Made by a program: the position numbers and the translations under genes
Origin: Fodinibius sp. Rm-B-1B1-1
GTDB lineage: Bacteria; Bacteroidota; Rhodothermia; Balneolales; Balneolaceae
NCBI RefSeq assembly: GCF_038594945.1
Contig: NZ_JBCFYD010000002.1
Span: 62,001 to 126,000 of the forward strand
DNA: 64,000 nt
Direction of reading: 5' to 3'
Notes under the pieces: model-generated
Seen by the model: only the letters and a program-made list of their open reading frames with translations
Database searches by the model: none
Told to the model about the DNA's origin: nothing
Part shown: positions 354 through 5,709 of the stretch, piece by piece
Layout of the letters: each line of letters starts with the position of its first letter
Position numbering within the stretch: the first letter of the stretch is position 1

Positions 354-1943
354 TTATATAGCTTTTTGATTATGTGTTTGATATTGTTGTGCTAAATAGT
401 AGTTAAAACTGTCTGAAAGGGCTTCCCAGCTGGCATCAATAATATTTCTGGAGACACCAATAGTGGTCCATGAATCTCCGGGATGAGCCGAGTCGATAAG
501 TACCCGCACCTGCGCGTCGGTTCCATCTTTTTTATTGAGAACCCGAACTTTGTAATCCTGTAGGTGCATGTCCGAAATTTCGGGATAGAAACGATGCACC
601 GCTTTGCGAAGTGCTTTGTCGAGGGCATGCACGGGTCCACTTCCTTCTGCAGCACAGTGTTCCATTTGCCCATTTACGGAAAGCCGAATAGTAGCCTCGG
701 TCCGTGAAGTGCCGGTGATGTTCTTTTCTACAATAATCCGAAAGCCCTCGAGCGAGAAAAATTCCTCATATTGATCCTTCATCTTTTTAACGAGCAGTTC
801 AAATGAAGCCTCAGCGGCCTCAAACTGATAGCCATTATTTTCCATCTCCTTAAGCTTATTTACAACGGCCGAAAGTTCCTCGCTGTCGTTATTGATGTCG
901 ATGTCCAGCTGCTCAGATTTAAAACGGATATTACTTTTGCCCGACAAATCAGAAACAAGAACACGTCGCCTGTTGCCCACTTTTTCGGGGACGACATGTT
1001 CGTAGGTTTCTTCATTTTTCATCACTGCGCTCACGTGGATGCCGCCTTTGTGAGCAAAAGCGCTTTTACCCACGTAGGGCTGTCGGTCGTTGGGATTTAG
1101 ATTCGCAACTTCGCTCACAAAATGAGAGAGTCCTGAAATATGACCCATATTATCTTCGGGCACACAGTGATAGTTTTGCTTAAGCTGCAGGTTGGGAATA
1201 ATCGAACAGAGGTTGGCATTGCCGCATCGCTCCCCATAACCGTTGATGGTGCCCTGAACGTGGGTACATCCGGCACTCACAGCTGCTATAGAATTGGCAA
1301 CACCGAGCTCGCAGTCGTTGTGAGCGTGAATCCCAATTTCTGTATCTATATGTTTTTGAACCTCTGTAATAATTTGGCTGATTTCCGTCGGAAGCGTACC
1401 GCCGTTGGTATCGCAGAGCACAAGCGTATCAGCACCAGCCGTTTCGGCGGCCTTTATGGTATCCAAGGCGTAATTGGGATGGACTTTATAGCCATCGAAA
1501 AAGTGTTCGGCATCGTAAATTACTTCTTTGTGATGCTCTTTGAGATAGTGCACCGAGTCATAGATGATTCGGATGTTTTCGTCCGCCGTAGTTTGCAGTG
1601 CTTCTTTTACATGAAGCAACCAGCTTTTGCCAAAGATCGAAACGGTTGGCGTTTGTGCTTCAATAAGTTTCTGGATATTGGGATCCTTGGCGGGATCAGA
1701 TTCGGTCCGGCAGGTACTGCCAAATGCCACAATGCGAGCGTGATCAAAAGTGTGTTTGCGGGCCAAGGCAAAGAACTCCATATCCTTGGGATTGGAGCCC
1801 GGCCAGCCGCCTTCGATGTAGTCGATGCCAAAGTTGTCGATCTGCTTGGCGATGCGCAGCTTGTCGTAAGCTGAAAATGCTACCTTTTCGCCCTGCGTAC
1901 CGTCCCGGAGCGTAGTATCAAATGTGTGGATTTTCTGATCCAT
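354..1943 (-). CDS. cimA: (R)-citramalate synthase
   Basis: A 529-residue member of the LeuA/HMGL-like family. It has DTTLRDGTQ at residues 9-17 and the metal-binding HAHND at 206-210, and its C-terminal part has the length of a LeuA dimer/regulatory domain. The DGTQGEKVAFS start and the spacing fit the citramalate synthase branch rather than 2-isopropylmalate synthase, a separate copy of which follows. CimA condenses pyruvate and acetyl-CoA to citramalate, the threonine-independent route to 2-oxobutyrate and isoleucine. The start ATG overlaps the ilvC stop by one base (TAATG), so the two are translationally coupled. Its position in the ilv operon supports an isoleucine role. Substrate choice is inferred from the subfamily. 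Confidence 0.9.
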   Translation of the reverse strand: MDQKIHTFDTTLRDGTQGEKVAFSAYDKLRIAKQIDNFGIDYIEGGWPGSNPKDMEFFALARKHTFDHARIVAFGSTCRTESDPAKDPNIQKLIEAQTPTVSIFGKSWLLHVKEALQTTADENIRIIYDSVHYLKEHHKEVIYDAEHFFDGYKVHPNYALDTIKAAETAGADTLVLCDTNGGTLPTEISQIITEVQKHIDTEIGIHAHNDCELGVANSIAAVSAGCTHVQGTINGYGERCGNANLCSIIPNLQLKQNYHCVPEDNMGHISGLSHFVSEVANLNPNDRQPYVGKSAFAHKGGIHVSAVMKNEETYEHVVPEKVGNRRRVLVSDLSGKSNIRFKSEQLDIDINNDSEELSAVVNKLKEMENNGYQFEAAEASFELLVKKMKDQYEEFFSLEGFRIIVEKNITGTSRTEATIRLSVNGQMEHCAAEGSGPVHALDKALRKAVHRFYPEISDMHLQDYKVRVLNKKDGTDAQVRVLIDSAHPGDSWTTIGVSRNIIDASWEALSDSFNYYLAQQYQTHNQKAI

Positions 1944-2968
1944 TATTCTGCGGCCTCGTCAACTTCACTTTCCTCTTCCAATATTCCTTCCATCATAGAG
2001 CGGAGCTGTTTCCCCACCTTTTCAATCTGATGGTCGCCTAACTGTGATCGCAATTCCTTGAGTTTAGGAATTCCATCTTCATTCTCCTTGATCCAATCGT
2101 TAGCAAAAGCCCCGTTTTGTACCCGCTTAAGCACCTCTTTCATCCGCTCCTTGTTGACTTCATCAACGACCTCTGCACCACGGGTAAGTCCGCCGTATTC
2201 CGCGGTATCACTTACGGAGTAATACATGCGTTCAATGCCGCCTTCGTACATTAGGTCCACAATAAGCTTGAGCTCGTGCAGACATTCGAAGTAGGCAATT
2301 TCGGGTTGATATCCGGCTTCGGTAAGTACTTCAAAGCCTTGTTTTACGAGTTCGGAAACCCCTCCGCAAAGTATGGCCTGTTCGCCAAAAAGATCAGTTT
2401 CAGTCTCTTCTTTAAAAGTGGTTTCCAAGACGCCGGCCCGAGTGCCTCCGATAGCTTTGGCATAGGCCAGGGCGGTACCTTTGGCGGTTCCTGTATAGTC
2501 TTGATCCACGGCAATAAGGCAGGGAGTCCCCGATCCTTTTTTGTAAACTCTGCGCACCAGGTGTCCCGGACTTTTTGGGGCAATCATAAATACATCCACA
2601 TTGGTGTCAGGCTGTATCTGATCAAAGTGGATGTTAAAGCCGTGGGCAAATGCAAGGGCATTACCATCCGAAAGATTCGGTTTTATTTCTTGCTCATACA
2701 CGTCTGCCTGATATTGATCGGGGATGAGCACCATTACAATATCACCTTTCTGTGCCGCTTCGGCAGTAGAGTAAACTTTGAGTCCTTCATTTTTGGCTTT
2801 GGCACGCGATGAGCTATCCTCGCGAAGACCAACGACTACATTTACGCCACTGTCTTTGAGGTTTAGTGCATGGGCATGACCCTGACTTCCATATCCAAGG
2901 ATGGCTACCGTTTTGTCGTGTAAAAATTTAAGATCTGCATCTGCGTTATAGTATGTTTTTGCTTCCAT
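1943..2968 (-). CDS. ilvC: Ketol-acid reductoisomerase (NADP+)
   Basis: A class I (short) enzyme of 341 residues. It has the dinucleotide-binding motif GYGSQG at 25-30, and Arg49 with Ser52-54 suggests NADPH preference. The C-terminal half carries the conserved helical knotted domain with the catalytic acidic residues (E-x-D-L-F-G-E-Q and later Glu). It converts acetolactate and acetohydroxybutyrate to the dihydroxy acids of valine/leucine and isoleucine synthesis. It lies 27 bp after ilvN and overlaps cimA by one base. The acidic C-terminal tail (about 12 residues) is slightly extended compared with minimal class I enzymes. Confidence 0.97.
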
Positions 2969-2995
2969 AATAAAATGTTGATTAACTATTTGTTG

Positions 2996-3520
2996 TTAAA
3001 CTGATCCTTCGAATTCTCTTTTAAGTGCTACCGTACCTGTCCGTGCTAATTCAATAATGCCGAATGGACGTACCATACCGATAAAAGCATTGACCTTGTC
3101 GCGATTACCGGTAATTTCTATTGCCAGGTTATCCGGACTGATATCAATAATTTTGGCGCGAAAAATATCGGTAATCTGCATAATTTCGGATCGTGCCGAT
3201 CGCTGTGCCTTAACTTTTACTAACGCCATTTCACGTTCTACAAAGCTTTGATGAGTGAGGTCGGAAACCGTTACCACATCGATAATTTTATGCAGCTGTT
3301 TGGTGATCTGCTCGATAATCTGTTCATCACCATGAGTTGTTATGGTGATTCGTGCCAACCCCGTTTCTTTTCCCGATCCGAAACTGATACTGTCAATTTC
3401 AAATCCCTTGCTGCTGAAAATTCCGATAATGCGAGAAAGGGCATTGAGGTTATATTTTACGACCACCGAAAGGGTGTGTTTTGTTTGGTTTGTTGCTGTA
3501 CCGTTCTGTGTTGAACTCAT
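2996..3520 (-). CDS. ilvN: Acetolactate synthase, small regulatory subunit
   Basis: A 174-residue protein with an N-terminal ACT domain (about residues 17-90, beginning LSVVVKYNLNALSRIIGIF) and the C-terminal ALS_ss_C domain. It binds the catalytic IlvB subunit, activates it and gives feedback inhibition by valine or other branched-chain amino acids. The start ATG overlaps the ilvB stop (ATGA, 4 bases), typical of coupled subunits. The length is normal for IlvH/IlvN-type subunits. Confidence 0.95.
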   Translation of the reverse strand: MSSTQNGTATNQTKHTLSVVVKYNLNALSRIIGIFSSKGFEIDSISFGSGKETGLARITITTHGDEQIIEQITKQLHKIIDVVTVSDLTHQSFVEREMALVKVKAQRSARSEIMQITDIFRAKIIDISPDNLAIEITGNRDKVNAFIGMVRPFGIIELARTGTVALKREFEGSV

Positions 3521-5268
3521 TCCTTATCCCCCAAAACCATTTCATTTAATGCTGCTCCCGAGGGTACCATGGGATAGCAATTTTCGTATTCGTCAACCCG
3601 GAAATCCATCACAACCGGGCGGTCGTCAATTGTCATGGCTTCTGCGAGCACCTGTTCCATCTCGTTTTTACTGGAAGCTCTAAATCCAGCTGCACCGTAG
3701 CTTTCAGCAAGCTTTACGAAATCGGGATTTCCTTTTTTGAGGATAGAGTGACTGTATCGCTCATCATAGAATAGTTCTTGCCACTGTCGTACCATGCCGA
3801 GGCATTCGTTATTCATGATGGCAATCTTGAGTGGTACCTCGTATTCCACAGCTGTTGCCAGCTCATAGGCCGTCATTTGAAATCCGCCGTCACCAGTGAT
3901 GCATACCACCGGACGATCGGGACAGCCAAAATGAGCTCCCAGGGCAGCAGGAAAGCCATAGCCCATAGTGCCTAATCCACCCGATGAAAGAAAGGAGCGG
4001 GGATAATCGTAGGTATAATGCTGCGCCGCCCACATTTGATGTTGTCCCACATCGGTTACCACAATGGCCTTTCCGTTGGTGATATCAGAGATCGATTCCA
4101 TCATCTGTTGCGGTTTAATCTTGTGGTCTTCTTCGGGTACTTCCAGCGGATGCTCCTCTTTCCACTTGTTGATGGTGTCCCACCAATCATTGGTATCTGG
4201 TTGTTCAGTATGTTTGTCAATTTCTGGTAAAACGTGTTTTACATCACCGACAATAGGCACGTCCACTTCTACATTTTTCCCGATGTTTGTAGGATCAATA
4301 TCAATGTGGATTTTCTTTGAATGAGGTGAAAATCCCTCCAGGTCGCCGGTAACGCGATCATCAAACCGGGCCCCAACAGCGACCAGAACATCGCATTCAG
4401 TCGTGGCCATATTGGCGTAATAGGTGCCGTGCATTCCCAGCATTCCAAGCGATTGCGGTTTGCTTTCGGGAAAGCCACCTAATCCCATAAGGGTAGTAGT
4501 AACAGGGATATTATGATTTTCGGCCAGGGCAGTAAGCTCTTCCCATGCTTCTCCGAGGATGACTCCACCACCGGCATAAATGAGGGGTTTTTCGGCTTCA
4601 CTGAGCAATTCAGCAGCTTTTTGAATCTGCGTAAAATGACCTTTTTTAGTAGGATTATAACTTGGGATAGATACTTTATGCAGTCCACTAAATCTTCCTT
4701 TGGCCTGAAGCATATCTTTTGGAAGATCTACTAATACCGGTCCCGGGCGTCCGCTCGTGGCTACATGAAAGGCTTCACGAACGGTCTGTTCCAGCTCATC
4801 TACATCCTTAACTAAGTAATTATTCTTGGTGATAGGGCGTGTTATGCCAACAATATCAGCTTCCTGGAAAGCATCATTACCGATCATTTCTTTTGGTACC
4901 TGTCCGGTAAAAACAACAAGCGGTATCGAGTCCATTGCTGCTGTTGCAATGCCCGTTACGGTATTTGTACCGCCCGGACCTGATGTTGCCATTACTACGC
5001 CTGGTTTTCCAGTGGCACGGGCATATCCATCTGCGGCATGTGATCCGGCCTGTTCGTGTCTTATTAAAACATGGTTGATATCATTATTATCAAACAGTTC
5101 GTCATAAAGGGGCAAGACGGCACCGCCTGGATAGCCGAATATAGTATCAACATCGAGGTTTTCCAGTGTTTTGATGAGAATACCTGCTCCGTTTAAAACG
5201 GGGGATTCCTTTTCTTGGACCGATTTCTCTTTGTTTTTGTTGGATGTATGTGCTTTTGCAGATTCCAT
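3517..5268 (-). CDS. ilvB: Acetolactate synthase, large catalytic subunit
   Basis: A 583-residue thiamine-diphosphate enzyme with the three expected domains: an N-terminal pyrimidine-binding domain with the catalytic Glu in IRHEQAGSHAADGYAR, a central FAD/ADP-binding-like domain, and a C-terminal ThDP-binding domain with the GDGGFQMTAYEL...NN motif. It makes acetolactate and acetohydroxybutyrate, the first shared step of Val/Leu/Ile synthesis. The first 25 residues are a charged extension (ESAKAHTSNKNKEKS) before the core. The start ATG has GAGG four bases upstream, and that GAGG lies in the 3' arm of a hairpin in the leader region. It is the first gene of ilvB-N-C-cimA-leuA. Confidence 0.97.
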   Translation of the reverse strand: MESAKAHTSNKNKEKSVQEKESPVLNGAGILIKTLENLDVDTIFGYPGGAVLPLYDELFDNNDINHVLIRHEQAGSHAADGYARATGKPGVVMATSGPGGTNTVTGIATAAMDSIPLVVFTGQVPKEMIGNDAFQEADIVGITRPITKNNYLVKDVDELEQTVREAFHVATSGRPGPVLVDLPKDMLQAKGRFSGLHKVSIPSYNPTKKGHFTQIQKAAELLSEAEKPLIYAGGGVILGEAWEELTALAENHNIPVTTTLMGLGGFPESKPQSLGMLGMHGTYYANMATTECDVLVAVGARFDDRVTGDLEGFSPHSKKIHIDIDPTNIGKNVEVDVPIVGDVKHVLPEIDKHTEQPDTNDWWDTINKWKEEHPLEVPEEDHKIKPQQMMESISDITNGKAIVVTDVGQHQMWAAQHYTYDYPRSFLSSGGLGTMGYGFPAALGAHFGCPDRPVVCITGDGGFQMTAYELATAVEYEVPLKIAIMNNECLGMVRQWQELFYDERYSHSILKKGNPDFVKLAESYGAAGFRASSKNEMEQVLAEAMTIDDRPVVMDFRVDEYENCYPMVPSGAALNEMVLGDKE

Positions 5269-5361
5269 GTGACCTCGCAGATATACTTTTCCTGCCAGAG
5301 GTCAGAAGAAAGATGAAATGTGATCAGGAATTCAGTTTCTAACCTCTGGCTGTTATGGTTA
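5269..5361 (-). promoter_or_regulatory. Candidate translational attenuator of ilvB
   Basis: Between the leader-ORF stop (5361-5359) and the ilvB ATG (5268) there are three arms. Arm 1 is GCCAGAGGTTAG (5350-5339), arm 2 CTGACCTCTGGC (5305-5294) and arm 3 CTGCGAGGTC (5280-5271). Arm 1 pairs with arm 2 over 12 bp (one G-U). Arm 2 also pairs with arm 3 as GACCTC/GAGGTC plus GCAG/CTGC around a 2-nt bulge. Arm 3 contains the only Shine-Dalgarno of ilvB (GAGG, 5276-5273). A ribosome finishing the leader would cover arm 1 and let arms 2-3 hide the Shine-Dalgarno. A ribosome stalled at earlier Ile/Leu/Val codons would leave arms 1-2 paired and the Shine-Dalgarno free. No U-run follows arm 3, so control would act on translation. 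The pairings are seen; the mechanism is inferred. Confidence 0.7.
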
Positions 5362-5610
5362 GCTAATAATTAGGATTAGGTTAATAATGCCAGAAATTAG
5401 AATAGATAGAATAATTAGTAGGTTTAGTAGACCTATTACAGTCTCTATACTAATTATTTCTACTACAGAAGAGATAGAAACAGCTAAAGAAATGAAGGGA
5501 GAGAGCAAAGAAAGTACAAGCAACATAGTAATACCATCAGCATCAAACAGATCGGAAAGTGCCCCCGATTGTTTGCCTAATGAGTTGATATGTATTGCTT
5601 GTGAATTCAA
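5359..5610 (-). CDS. Ile/Leu/Val-rich leader peptide of the ilv operon
   Basis: A short ORF that ends 90 bp before ilvB. From the TTG at 5610 it is 83 codons; from the in-frame ATG at 5526 it is 55 codons. Nineteen of its last 26 residues are Ile, Leu or Val (for example LLNLLIILSILISGIINLIL), and eight of those leucines use CTA. It lies downstream of a consensus promoter and upstream of alternative RNA stems that involve the ilvB Shine-Dalgarno. This matches a branched-chain amino-acid attenuation leader, though it is longer than the enterobacterial ones. The alternative is a small membrane protein, since the sequence is hydrophobic. The start codon is uncertain; neither candidate has a strong Shine-Dalgarno. 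Confidence 0.72.
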   Translation of the reverse strand: MNSQAIHINSLGKQSGALSDLFDADGITMLLVLSLLSPFISLAVSISSVVEIISIETVIGLLNLLIILSILISGIINLILIIS

Positions 5611-5641
5611 TTTTAGCTATTTCTTTCAATTAAGAATCATC

Positions 5642-5670
5642 ATTATAGCTAACGGATATTCCCTTGTCAA
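5642..5670 (-). promoter_or_regulatory. Consensus sigma-70 promoter of the ilv operon
   Basis: On the minus strand TTGACA (5670-5665) is followed after exactly 17 bp by TATAAT (5647-5642), both perfect matches to the enterobacterial consensus. The -35 is also part of TTTG, the Bacteroidota -33 element. The predicted transcript starts near 5635, 25 bases before the TTG start of the leader ORF. A strong constitutive promoter ahead of a leader peptide fits control by attenuation. Confidence 0.75.
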
Positions 5671-5709
5671 ATTTAATTTTGATTGCAGGTGATTTATATT
5701 ATTCTCTTG

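Follow-up and report, generated by a model that had tools for sequence, protein, structure and literature searches.

The question raised by this locus is how ilvB is regulated in Fodinibius sp. Rm-B-1B1-1, where a promoter is followed by an Ile/Leu-rich open reading frame (ORF) and by complementary RNA segments that reach the start of the gene. The stretch of 64,000 nucleotides analysed here (the window) had been read earlier from its letters alone (the sequence-only reading) as a three-arm translational attenuator, in which the ribosome that finishes the leader masks arm 1 and arm 3 hides the Shine-Dalgarno (SD) sequence of ilvB. Here it is proposed that the element is very probably a ribosome-mediated attenuator of four segments, with the initiation of ilvB translation as its output and with leucine and isoleucine as the amino acids sensed. 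Its features are listed in Table 1.

Table 1. Features of the ilvB leader and of its neighbouring genes (positions of the window)
Feature	Position	Strand	Description	Evidence
Sigma-70-like promoter	5642..5670	minus	TTGACA 5670-5665, spacer 17 nt, TATAAT 5647-5642	12/12 consensus matches
Leader ORF	5359..5610	minus	83 codons, TTG to TAA, Ile/Leu-rich tail with ATT and CTA codons	
Segment 1	5389..5402	minus	TTCTAATTTCTGGC, within leader codons; predicted partner segment 2	RNAduplex -21.1 kcal/mol
Segment 2	5337..5350	minus	GCCAGAGGTTAGAA; arm 1 of the sequence-only reading	
Segment 3	5292..5307	minus	TTCTGACCTCTGGCAG; arm 2 of the sequence-only reading; predicted partner segment 2 or 4	RNAduplex 2:3 -26.5, 3:4 -18.7 kcal/mol
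Segment 4	5270..5280	minus	CTGC-GAGGTCA; arm 3 of the sequence-only reading	Covariation, alignment A1 columns 115/131 and 116/130
ilvB	3517..5268	minus	Acetolactate synthase large subunit, putative regulated gene	ORF and homology
Downstream genes	354..3520	minus	ilvN-like 3520-2996, ilvC-like 2968-1943, citramalate-synthase-like 1943-354	
ilvD	from 5815		Divergent to the ilvB cluster	ORF translation

The promoter named by the sequence-only reading is at full consensus, its -35 box preceding the leader start by 60 nt, and that reading's figure of 19 Ile, Leu or Val among the last 26 leader residues was reproduced by counting on the translation. The leader stop codon (5361-5359) lies 8 nt ahead of arm 1, and no U-run follows arm 3, as that reading had stated. 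Its arms (14 nt at 5350-5337, TTCTGACCTCTGGC at 5307-5294 and the gapped stretch at 5280-5270) are present and can pair in the way described, the last one ending 1 nt ahead of the ilvB ATG. It overlooked that a further segment lies within the leader codons (5402-5389) and that leucine is encoded almost exclusively by CTA in the tail. The gene names (ilvB, ilvN-like, ilvC-like, citramalate-synthase-like and ilvD) are presumed, having been assigned from the translations by eye. The N-terminal 316 residues of ilvB are 80-84% identical to those of Fodinibius/Aliifodinibius relatives (L072-L075), and by sequence the window's genome is close to Fodinibius/Aliifodinibius. The ilvBNC cluster is closed by the citramalate-synthase-like gene, which suggests that isoleucine may be made via citramalate. 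On the plus strand, a 101-codon open frame (5387-5692) runs antisense to the leader and is probably a by-product of the Ile/Leu codons of the opposite strand. A single terminator-like site was found on the minus strand (5569-5551, inside the leader ORF), and both strands together had two such sites versus 0.8 in shuffles.

An ilvB-like match (E<=1e-100) was found in 87 of the 128 genomes of the order, 60 of them with an ilvB at least 60% identical to that of the window and 27 with one near 45%. From the first type 55 loci were fetched, and after L038 and L050 (37 and 35 nt upstream, respectively) were dropped, 53 loci were used, 34 of family f1 and 19 of families f2, f3 and f5; genomes G052, G101, G111, G122 and G124 are outside this set. 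The sequence-only reading had staked itself on conservation of the short ORF and of the pairings in relatives, and these were kept in 53/53 usable upstream regions: across the four families, an Ile/Leu-rich ORF stops shortly ahead of a segment able to pair both ways. Of the 60 genomes with the first ilvB type, 55 contain a single match to the covariance model R1; because 44 loci supplied the model, its independent score is 11/16 genomes. The misses comprise three genomes with a contig end at the site (G099, G124 and G127) and two with arms that look divergent by eye (G103 and G104). Searches of the order, class and phylum, run with Infernal's stricter filters, gave matches in 55/244 genomes of the class, all labelled as the same order or nearer, and in 19/394 genomes of the phylum, including three weak ones outside the order. 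Matches in G008 and G031 (E ~0.05) and in G523 look like chance, with no ilv gene seen there and, in G523, repeats inside an ORF. Rfam 15 gave no match in the window at the gathering score and none to locus L001 at E<=1, and a known Rfam leader or riboswitch was rejected on these grounds.

The leader tails carry the codons expected of a sensor. At least 10 Ile, Leu or Val codons were found within the last 14 leader codons in 42 of the 53 relatives' leader ORFs, which had been chosen for richness in these residues, versus 8/1000 in random 600-nt pieces of the window's genome, where the 14 codons before any stop were taken; at least 9 were found in 32/1000 pieces. Chance Ile/Leu richness was thus rejected. 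CTA accounts for 91% of the 210 Leu codons in the last 14 leader codons versus 2% of 1357 in the available parts of ilvB, and ATT for 88% of 304 Ile codons versus 48% of 1191. Valine is rare in the leader tails, so leucine and isoleucine are the likely signals. The same tail test left unflagged 75 of 80 loci in another set (some with little upstream sequence), all 15 loci fetched for the ilvB type of 45% identity (L057-L071, from 27 such genomes) and the ilvD-first loci, eight of which nevertheless have leaders visible by eye; it therefore misses leaders without Ile/Val codons at the very end.

The leaders are 50-90 codons long. In 41 of 50 loci an in-frame leader start is preceded, at a distance of 45-75 nt, by a TTGACA/T box; the start codon is TTG in 34 of these, ATG in four and GTG in three. 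The leader ORF of L025 was assigned by hand. The C-terminal residues ILISGI..LIIS/R are conserved across most of f1, the middle of the leader is divergent in sequence and length, and most f5 loci have a different, IDLLIGIL-like tail. The TTG start (window 5610-5580) is kept in many relatives together with a recurrent AITHT-like N-terminal motif, for which no RNA-pairing reason is obvious.

The pairing possibilities extend beyond three arms. In the window the leader codons ATT CTA ATT TCT GGC are predicted by RNAduplex to pair with all of arm 1, which therefore has two partners, segment 1 and segment 3; segment 3 in turn has segment 4, located at the ilvB start, as a possible second partner (RNAduplex per locus). 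The three-arm logic does not hold, as arm 1 is also contested by this additional segment within the leader codons. The helices 1:2, 2:3 and 3:4 are mutually exclusive, with an atypical segment 1 in L014 and L018, where the usual segment is absent and other duplexes are predicted. Pairing across groups was assessed by duplex energies because MAFFT alignments A2 and A4 (A4 with 44 of 51 prepared sequences, near-duplicates omitted and L051 and L053 excluded) misplace segment 1 across groups; in the duplex and folding tests, group f2 comprises L037 (of family f5), L039, L052 and L055, and group f2b comprises L036 (f2) and L043 (f3). With hand-picked representatives and statistics that ignore kinship, own versus permuted energies were -18.1 and -12.9 kcal/mol for 1:2 (0/20000 permutations, 23 loci), -22.9 and -19.6 for 2:3 (0/20000, 24 loci) and -10.9 and -9.5 for 3:4 (2/20000, 27 loci). 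Within f1 only (20 loci) the permutations were weaker (3:4 65/20000, 2:3 109/20000). Covariation of arms 1-2 and 2-3, proposed as a check by the sequence-only reading, is modest within f1.

Segments 1 and 2 change in concert: TCTGGC/GCCAGA in most of f1, TCTGGA/TCCAGA in L037, L052 and L055, CCTCGG/CCGAGG in L039, TCAGGA/TCCTGA in L051 and L053, and, in most f5 loci, a two-part match of TTGACCT and TTGGCA with TGCCAGAGGTCA. Segment 1 of L036/L043 pairs equally well with f5 partners (-15.9) and its own (-15.1). Two f3 loci, L051 and L053, show the same segment topology with unrelated arms (besides those of segments 1 and 2, TTTCGG..CCGAAA) and with ilvB 205 and 162 nt from the leader stop. In the alignment of the 34 f1 loci, the 2:3 helix is 96.8% paired versus 34-54% in slid controls, has a covariation score equalled in 52/500 shuffles and is the sole helix reported by RNAalifold; one of its pairs is broken in L024. 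The 3:4 helix is 72.5% paired versus 30-53%, and 0/500 shuffles equalled either its covariation score or its count of doubly changed cells, 10 at three pairs (alignment A1 columns 115/131, 116/130 and 102/140). The f1 arms are highly conserved, so only scarce covariation is possible within this family. Three outer pairs of TGACCTC/GAGGTCA form in just 7, 7 and 15 of the 34 loci; judged from these sequences, the full 7-bp pairing is not general. In some loci (e.g., L004, L005 and L012) the best 3:4 RNAduplex sits elsewhere.

The predicted fold depends on where the ribosome stands. This was modelled in the 34 f1 loci by constrained equilibrium (not kinetic) folding with an assumed footprint of -15 to +14 around the A site. 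With the ribosome at codon -9, 2:3 forms in 34/34 loci and 3:4 in 3/34; at the leader stop, 3:4 forms in 29/34 and 2:3 still in 13/34; with no ribosome, 3:4 forms in 20/34 and 2:3 in 17/34. The OFF state is therefore not uniform, given 3:4 in just 20/34 without a ribosome and 2:3 in 13/34 at the stop. The window locus is predicted to fold as 1:2 and 3:4 with no ribosome, as 2:3 at codon -9 and as a shortened 1:2 with 3:4 at the stop. A ribosome at the stop would cover just ~4 nt of arm 1 under the assumed footprint, which speaks against the masking of arm 1 by a finishing ribosome. The mean openness of positions -18..+2 in f1 shifts in the predicted direction by a small amount (stop 0.44, none 0.50, stalled up to 0.58), with stalled exceeding stop by >0.1 in 23/34 loci and exceeding no ribosome by >0.1 in 15/34. 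The shift is larger both in L037/L039/L052/L055 (0.43 to 0.57) and in L042/L047/L056 (0.31 at the stop, 0.37 with none and up to 0.57 when stalled).

From these observations we infer that transcription would start ~25 nt upstream of the leader ORF and that the leader would be read from its TTG. When charged tRNA-Leu and tRNA-Ile are ample, the ribosome would reach the stop and depart, segment 1 would pair with segment 2, and segment 3 would fold on segment 4, burying the ilvB start region (OFF). When leucine or isoleucine is scarce, the ribosome would stall at CTA/ATT codons on or just past segment 1 and cover it, so that segment 2 would pair with segment 3, segment 4 would be freed and ilvB would be translated (ON). 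The response to these two amino acids and the effect on translation would come from occlusion of the start site rather than from sequestration of an SD.

As for the output, segment 4 lies directly ahead of the ilvB ATG in 38 loci (the 34 of f1 and L037, L039, L052 and L055), and in these, as well as in L042, L047 and L056, the closing helix overlaps the ilvB start region. The distance from the leader stop to the ATG is 81-98 nt in f1. The ilvB starts of L021, L031, L034 and L035 were shifted by hand to the upstream ATG. The ilvB ATG lies >150 nt past the leader stop in 12/53 loci, for which the output could be coupling or termination. In L040, L044, L045 and L048 a second ORF of 25 codons (MNHPYHKN...YGYSI-like) has its ATG after segment 4, between leader and ilvB, and in L054 this ATG is seemingly lost. 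Inspection by eye showed the hairpin followed by ORFs of 39-52 codons in L036, L043, L046 and L049, and no second short ORF near the hairpin in L041, L051, L053 and L054. A terminator scan from the leader end to ATG+15 (stems >=5, loops 3-8; positive control 11/11 ilvD-first relatives) gave one weak match in 53 loci (L051, 5-bp stem), and an intrinsic-terminator transcription attenuator at ilvB was rejected on this basis. The sequence-only reading is supported on these points: an attenuator of the leader-peptide type, no terminator, and a closing hairpin that sits at the start of ilvB. The absence is informative, since terminator-type ilv attenuation exists in Balneolaceae.

In all 11 ilvD-first Balneolaceae genomes fetched (L248-L258), ilvD is preceded by a strong terminator that has about nine T. 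Eight of these loci have, by eye, a short Ile/Val-rich leader of 22-25 codons (e.g., MLSIILSLVIIQIIGIPYRTGKVL) ahead of the terminator, and a GGGGAAG-like stretch as an anti-terminator candidate. Of the three weak R1 matches in the phylum, L203 is no analogue; L202, which precedes ilvD, and L204, which precedes ilvB, are analogues, each with sequences of its own. Among 40 further ilvD upstream regions, seven (L240 and L242-L247) have at least 9 Ile, Leu or Val in the last 14 codons and complementary arms, with no U-run seen by eye directly after the hairpin; T-runs of five or six lie further past it in L240, L242, L243 and L245 (by eye). L217 also has 9 of these residues, but a terminator is present. 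The arms upstream of ilvD in L202, L242, L244, L245 and L246 are, by eye, of the GGGATT/AATCCC type; the hairpin lies ~35-50 nt ahead of the ilvD start, and a TATATCTGA-like motif comes after it. The scope of the sequence-only reading, which had predicted translational rather than transcriptional attenuation of an ilv operon outside the Proteobacteria, is not supported, as in other families of the phylum ilvD is preceded by leaders of a similar kind and the terminator type occurs in the same family.

In the earlier three-arm model, with its finishing ribosome over arm 1, the closing helix hides an SD. A GAGG does adjoin the ilvB ATG in the window (5276-5273), and GAGG occurs <=20 nt from the ATG in 12/34 f1 loci (12/53 overall), with any SD-like tetramer in 11/34 over a slightly different stretch, versus 8.3% in the genome. 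However, a survey of 204 genes of at least 250 codons in the window's genome showed no clear SD enrichment, with GGAG/GAGG/AGGA upstream of 8.3% versus 5-8% in control windows, and the anti-SD duplex was -1.48 upstream of genes versus -1.92 in controls; the gene-upstream regions are A/T-rich. The GAG is accounted for by its three pairs with the CUC of segment 3, which are intact in 24, 32 and 30 of the 34 f1 loci, respectively. In line with the survey, Bacteroidetes are described, in the available part of the source, as a phylum without SD, in which initiation is adjusted through the structure of the mRNA and the nucleotides upstream (PMC6847099). SD sequestration was rejected because of the lack of clear genomic enrichment and the GAGG in just 12/53 loci, and the strongly supported fourth segment also opposes the three-arm model, which is very improbable. 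Occlusion of the start site is the likely output, because the genome makes no clear use of SD sequences.

The same leader and helices could instead act on transcription, by premature termination that depends on Rho or on pausing and involves no U-run, ilvB translation being affected only secondarily. The 12 loci with distant ilvB starts would fit this, as would the ilvD leaders of other families, with their 3:4 hairpin well ahead of the start and T-runs further on, the terminator-type attenuation within the family, and the Rho route proposed, in the part of the source available, for terminator-less Mycobacterium cys leaders (PMC1262725). Segment 4 abuts the ATG in 38 loci, however, leaving scant room for a termination zone before the gene; the constant f1 spacing also argues against it, and just 4/53 loci have five consecutive T anywhere from segment 3 to the ATG, in each case distant from the hairpin. 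A transcriptional output is therefore rather unlikely. There is hardly any chance that regulation works without codon-level sensing and that the ORF encodes a hydrophobic microprotein with a function of its own or an arrest peptide acting through its specific sequence. The leader is long for an attenuator, its C-terminus is conserved in most of f1 and its N-terminal motif recurs, but the divergent middle, the different tail of most f5 loci, the Ser-Gly codons that follow the sequence of segment 2 between groups, and the extreme synonymous choice of CTA are all against it.

With translation of ilvB retained as the preferred output, there is about an even chance that the SD-less Bacteroidota have repeatedly rebuilt ribosome-mediated amino acid attenuation, using a start-site hairpin instead of the terminator. 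Balneolaceae would then carry both forms on one pathway, the ilvD terminator in some genomes and the start-occluding ilvB element in others; elsewhere in the phylum, ilvD or ilvB is preceded by related Ile/Leu leaders whose arm sequences are unrelated (L202, L204, L240 and L242-L247). A 2004 comparative study (Vitreschak and others) reportedly mentions attenuators in Bacteroidetes/Chlorobi. Among the matches listed from the open-access literature, subscription literature being mostly outside this scope, no description of the ilvB element or of any ilv attenuator in the order was found, nor, for the Bacteroid-trp motif, any related work. The available portions of other papers report strong clues for leader-peptide transcription attenuation in Flavobacterium psychrophilum (PMC9723704) and short ORFs reminiscent of attenuator leaders in Bacteroides thetaiotaomicron (PMC7366714), and describe a Leptospira ilvB motif (PMC8632094) and an ilv leader in S. 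aureus (PMC5794164). A covariance model now exists for an element without an Rfam 15 match, and the two natural forms make the switch between transcriptional and translational control directly testable.

In the trp-type scheme, control codons lie in the leader, the stop lies between segments 1 and 2, and the helices 1:2, 2:3 and 3:4 compete; textbook amino acid attenuators halt transcription. The ilvB element resembles the enterobacterial trp/leu/ilv attenuators in its control codons for pathway products, the position of its stop and its competing helices; unlike them, it has a 3:4 helix without a U-run that lies over the ilvB start region, and a leader of 50-90 codons with a TTG start in 34/41 anchored loci. 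It shares CUA as the leucine control codon with the Salmonella leu attenuator, where, in the part of the report available, a swap to CUG lowered sensitivity (PMC1183508). Like the erm-type translational attenuators, in which, according to the portion of the source at hand, a stalled leader ribosome refolds the RNA and permits translation of the gene (PMC11264731), it would respond to a stalled ribosome, but the signal would be slow Leu/Ile decoding instead of a macrolide, the gene is biosynthetic and no SD is apparently involved. The actinobacterial ilvB leaders are near relatives in print, and the leuA LEU element, with its Leu-rich leader ORF, is predicted in the accessible part of the same paper to pair with the leuA Shine-Dalgarno box (PMC1262725); unlike that pseudoknot, in which leucine codons pair with the SD, the ilvB element has four competing segments, apparently uses no SD and occurs in Balneolaceae and relatives. 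A branched-chain-rich upstream ORF ahead of ilvB is shared with the ilvB-II, ilvB-OMG and Leptospira ilvB motifs, of which ilvB-II is closed by a terminator and its run of uridines and the other two are proposed attenuators with an undemonstrated output; the ilvB-motif sections available from that paper make no mention of the Balneolaceae lineage (PMC10272879). The closest in pathway and family are the terminator-type ilvD attenuators of Balneolaceae, with their short Ile/Val-rich leader, a GGGGAAG-like stretch able to pair with a terminator arm and a strong terminator before ilvD, a terminator that the ilvB element lacks. By this comparison, the ilvB element appears to be the trp-type attenuator recast at the level of translation, in a bacterium seemingly without SD use.
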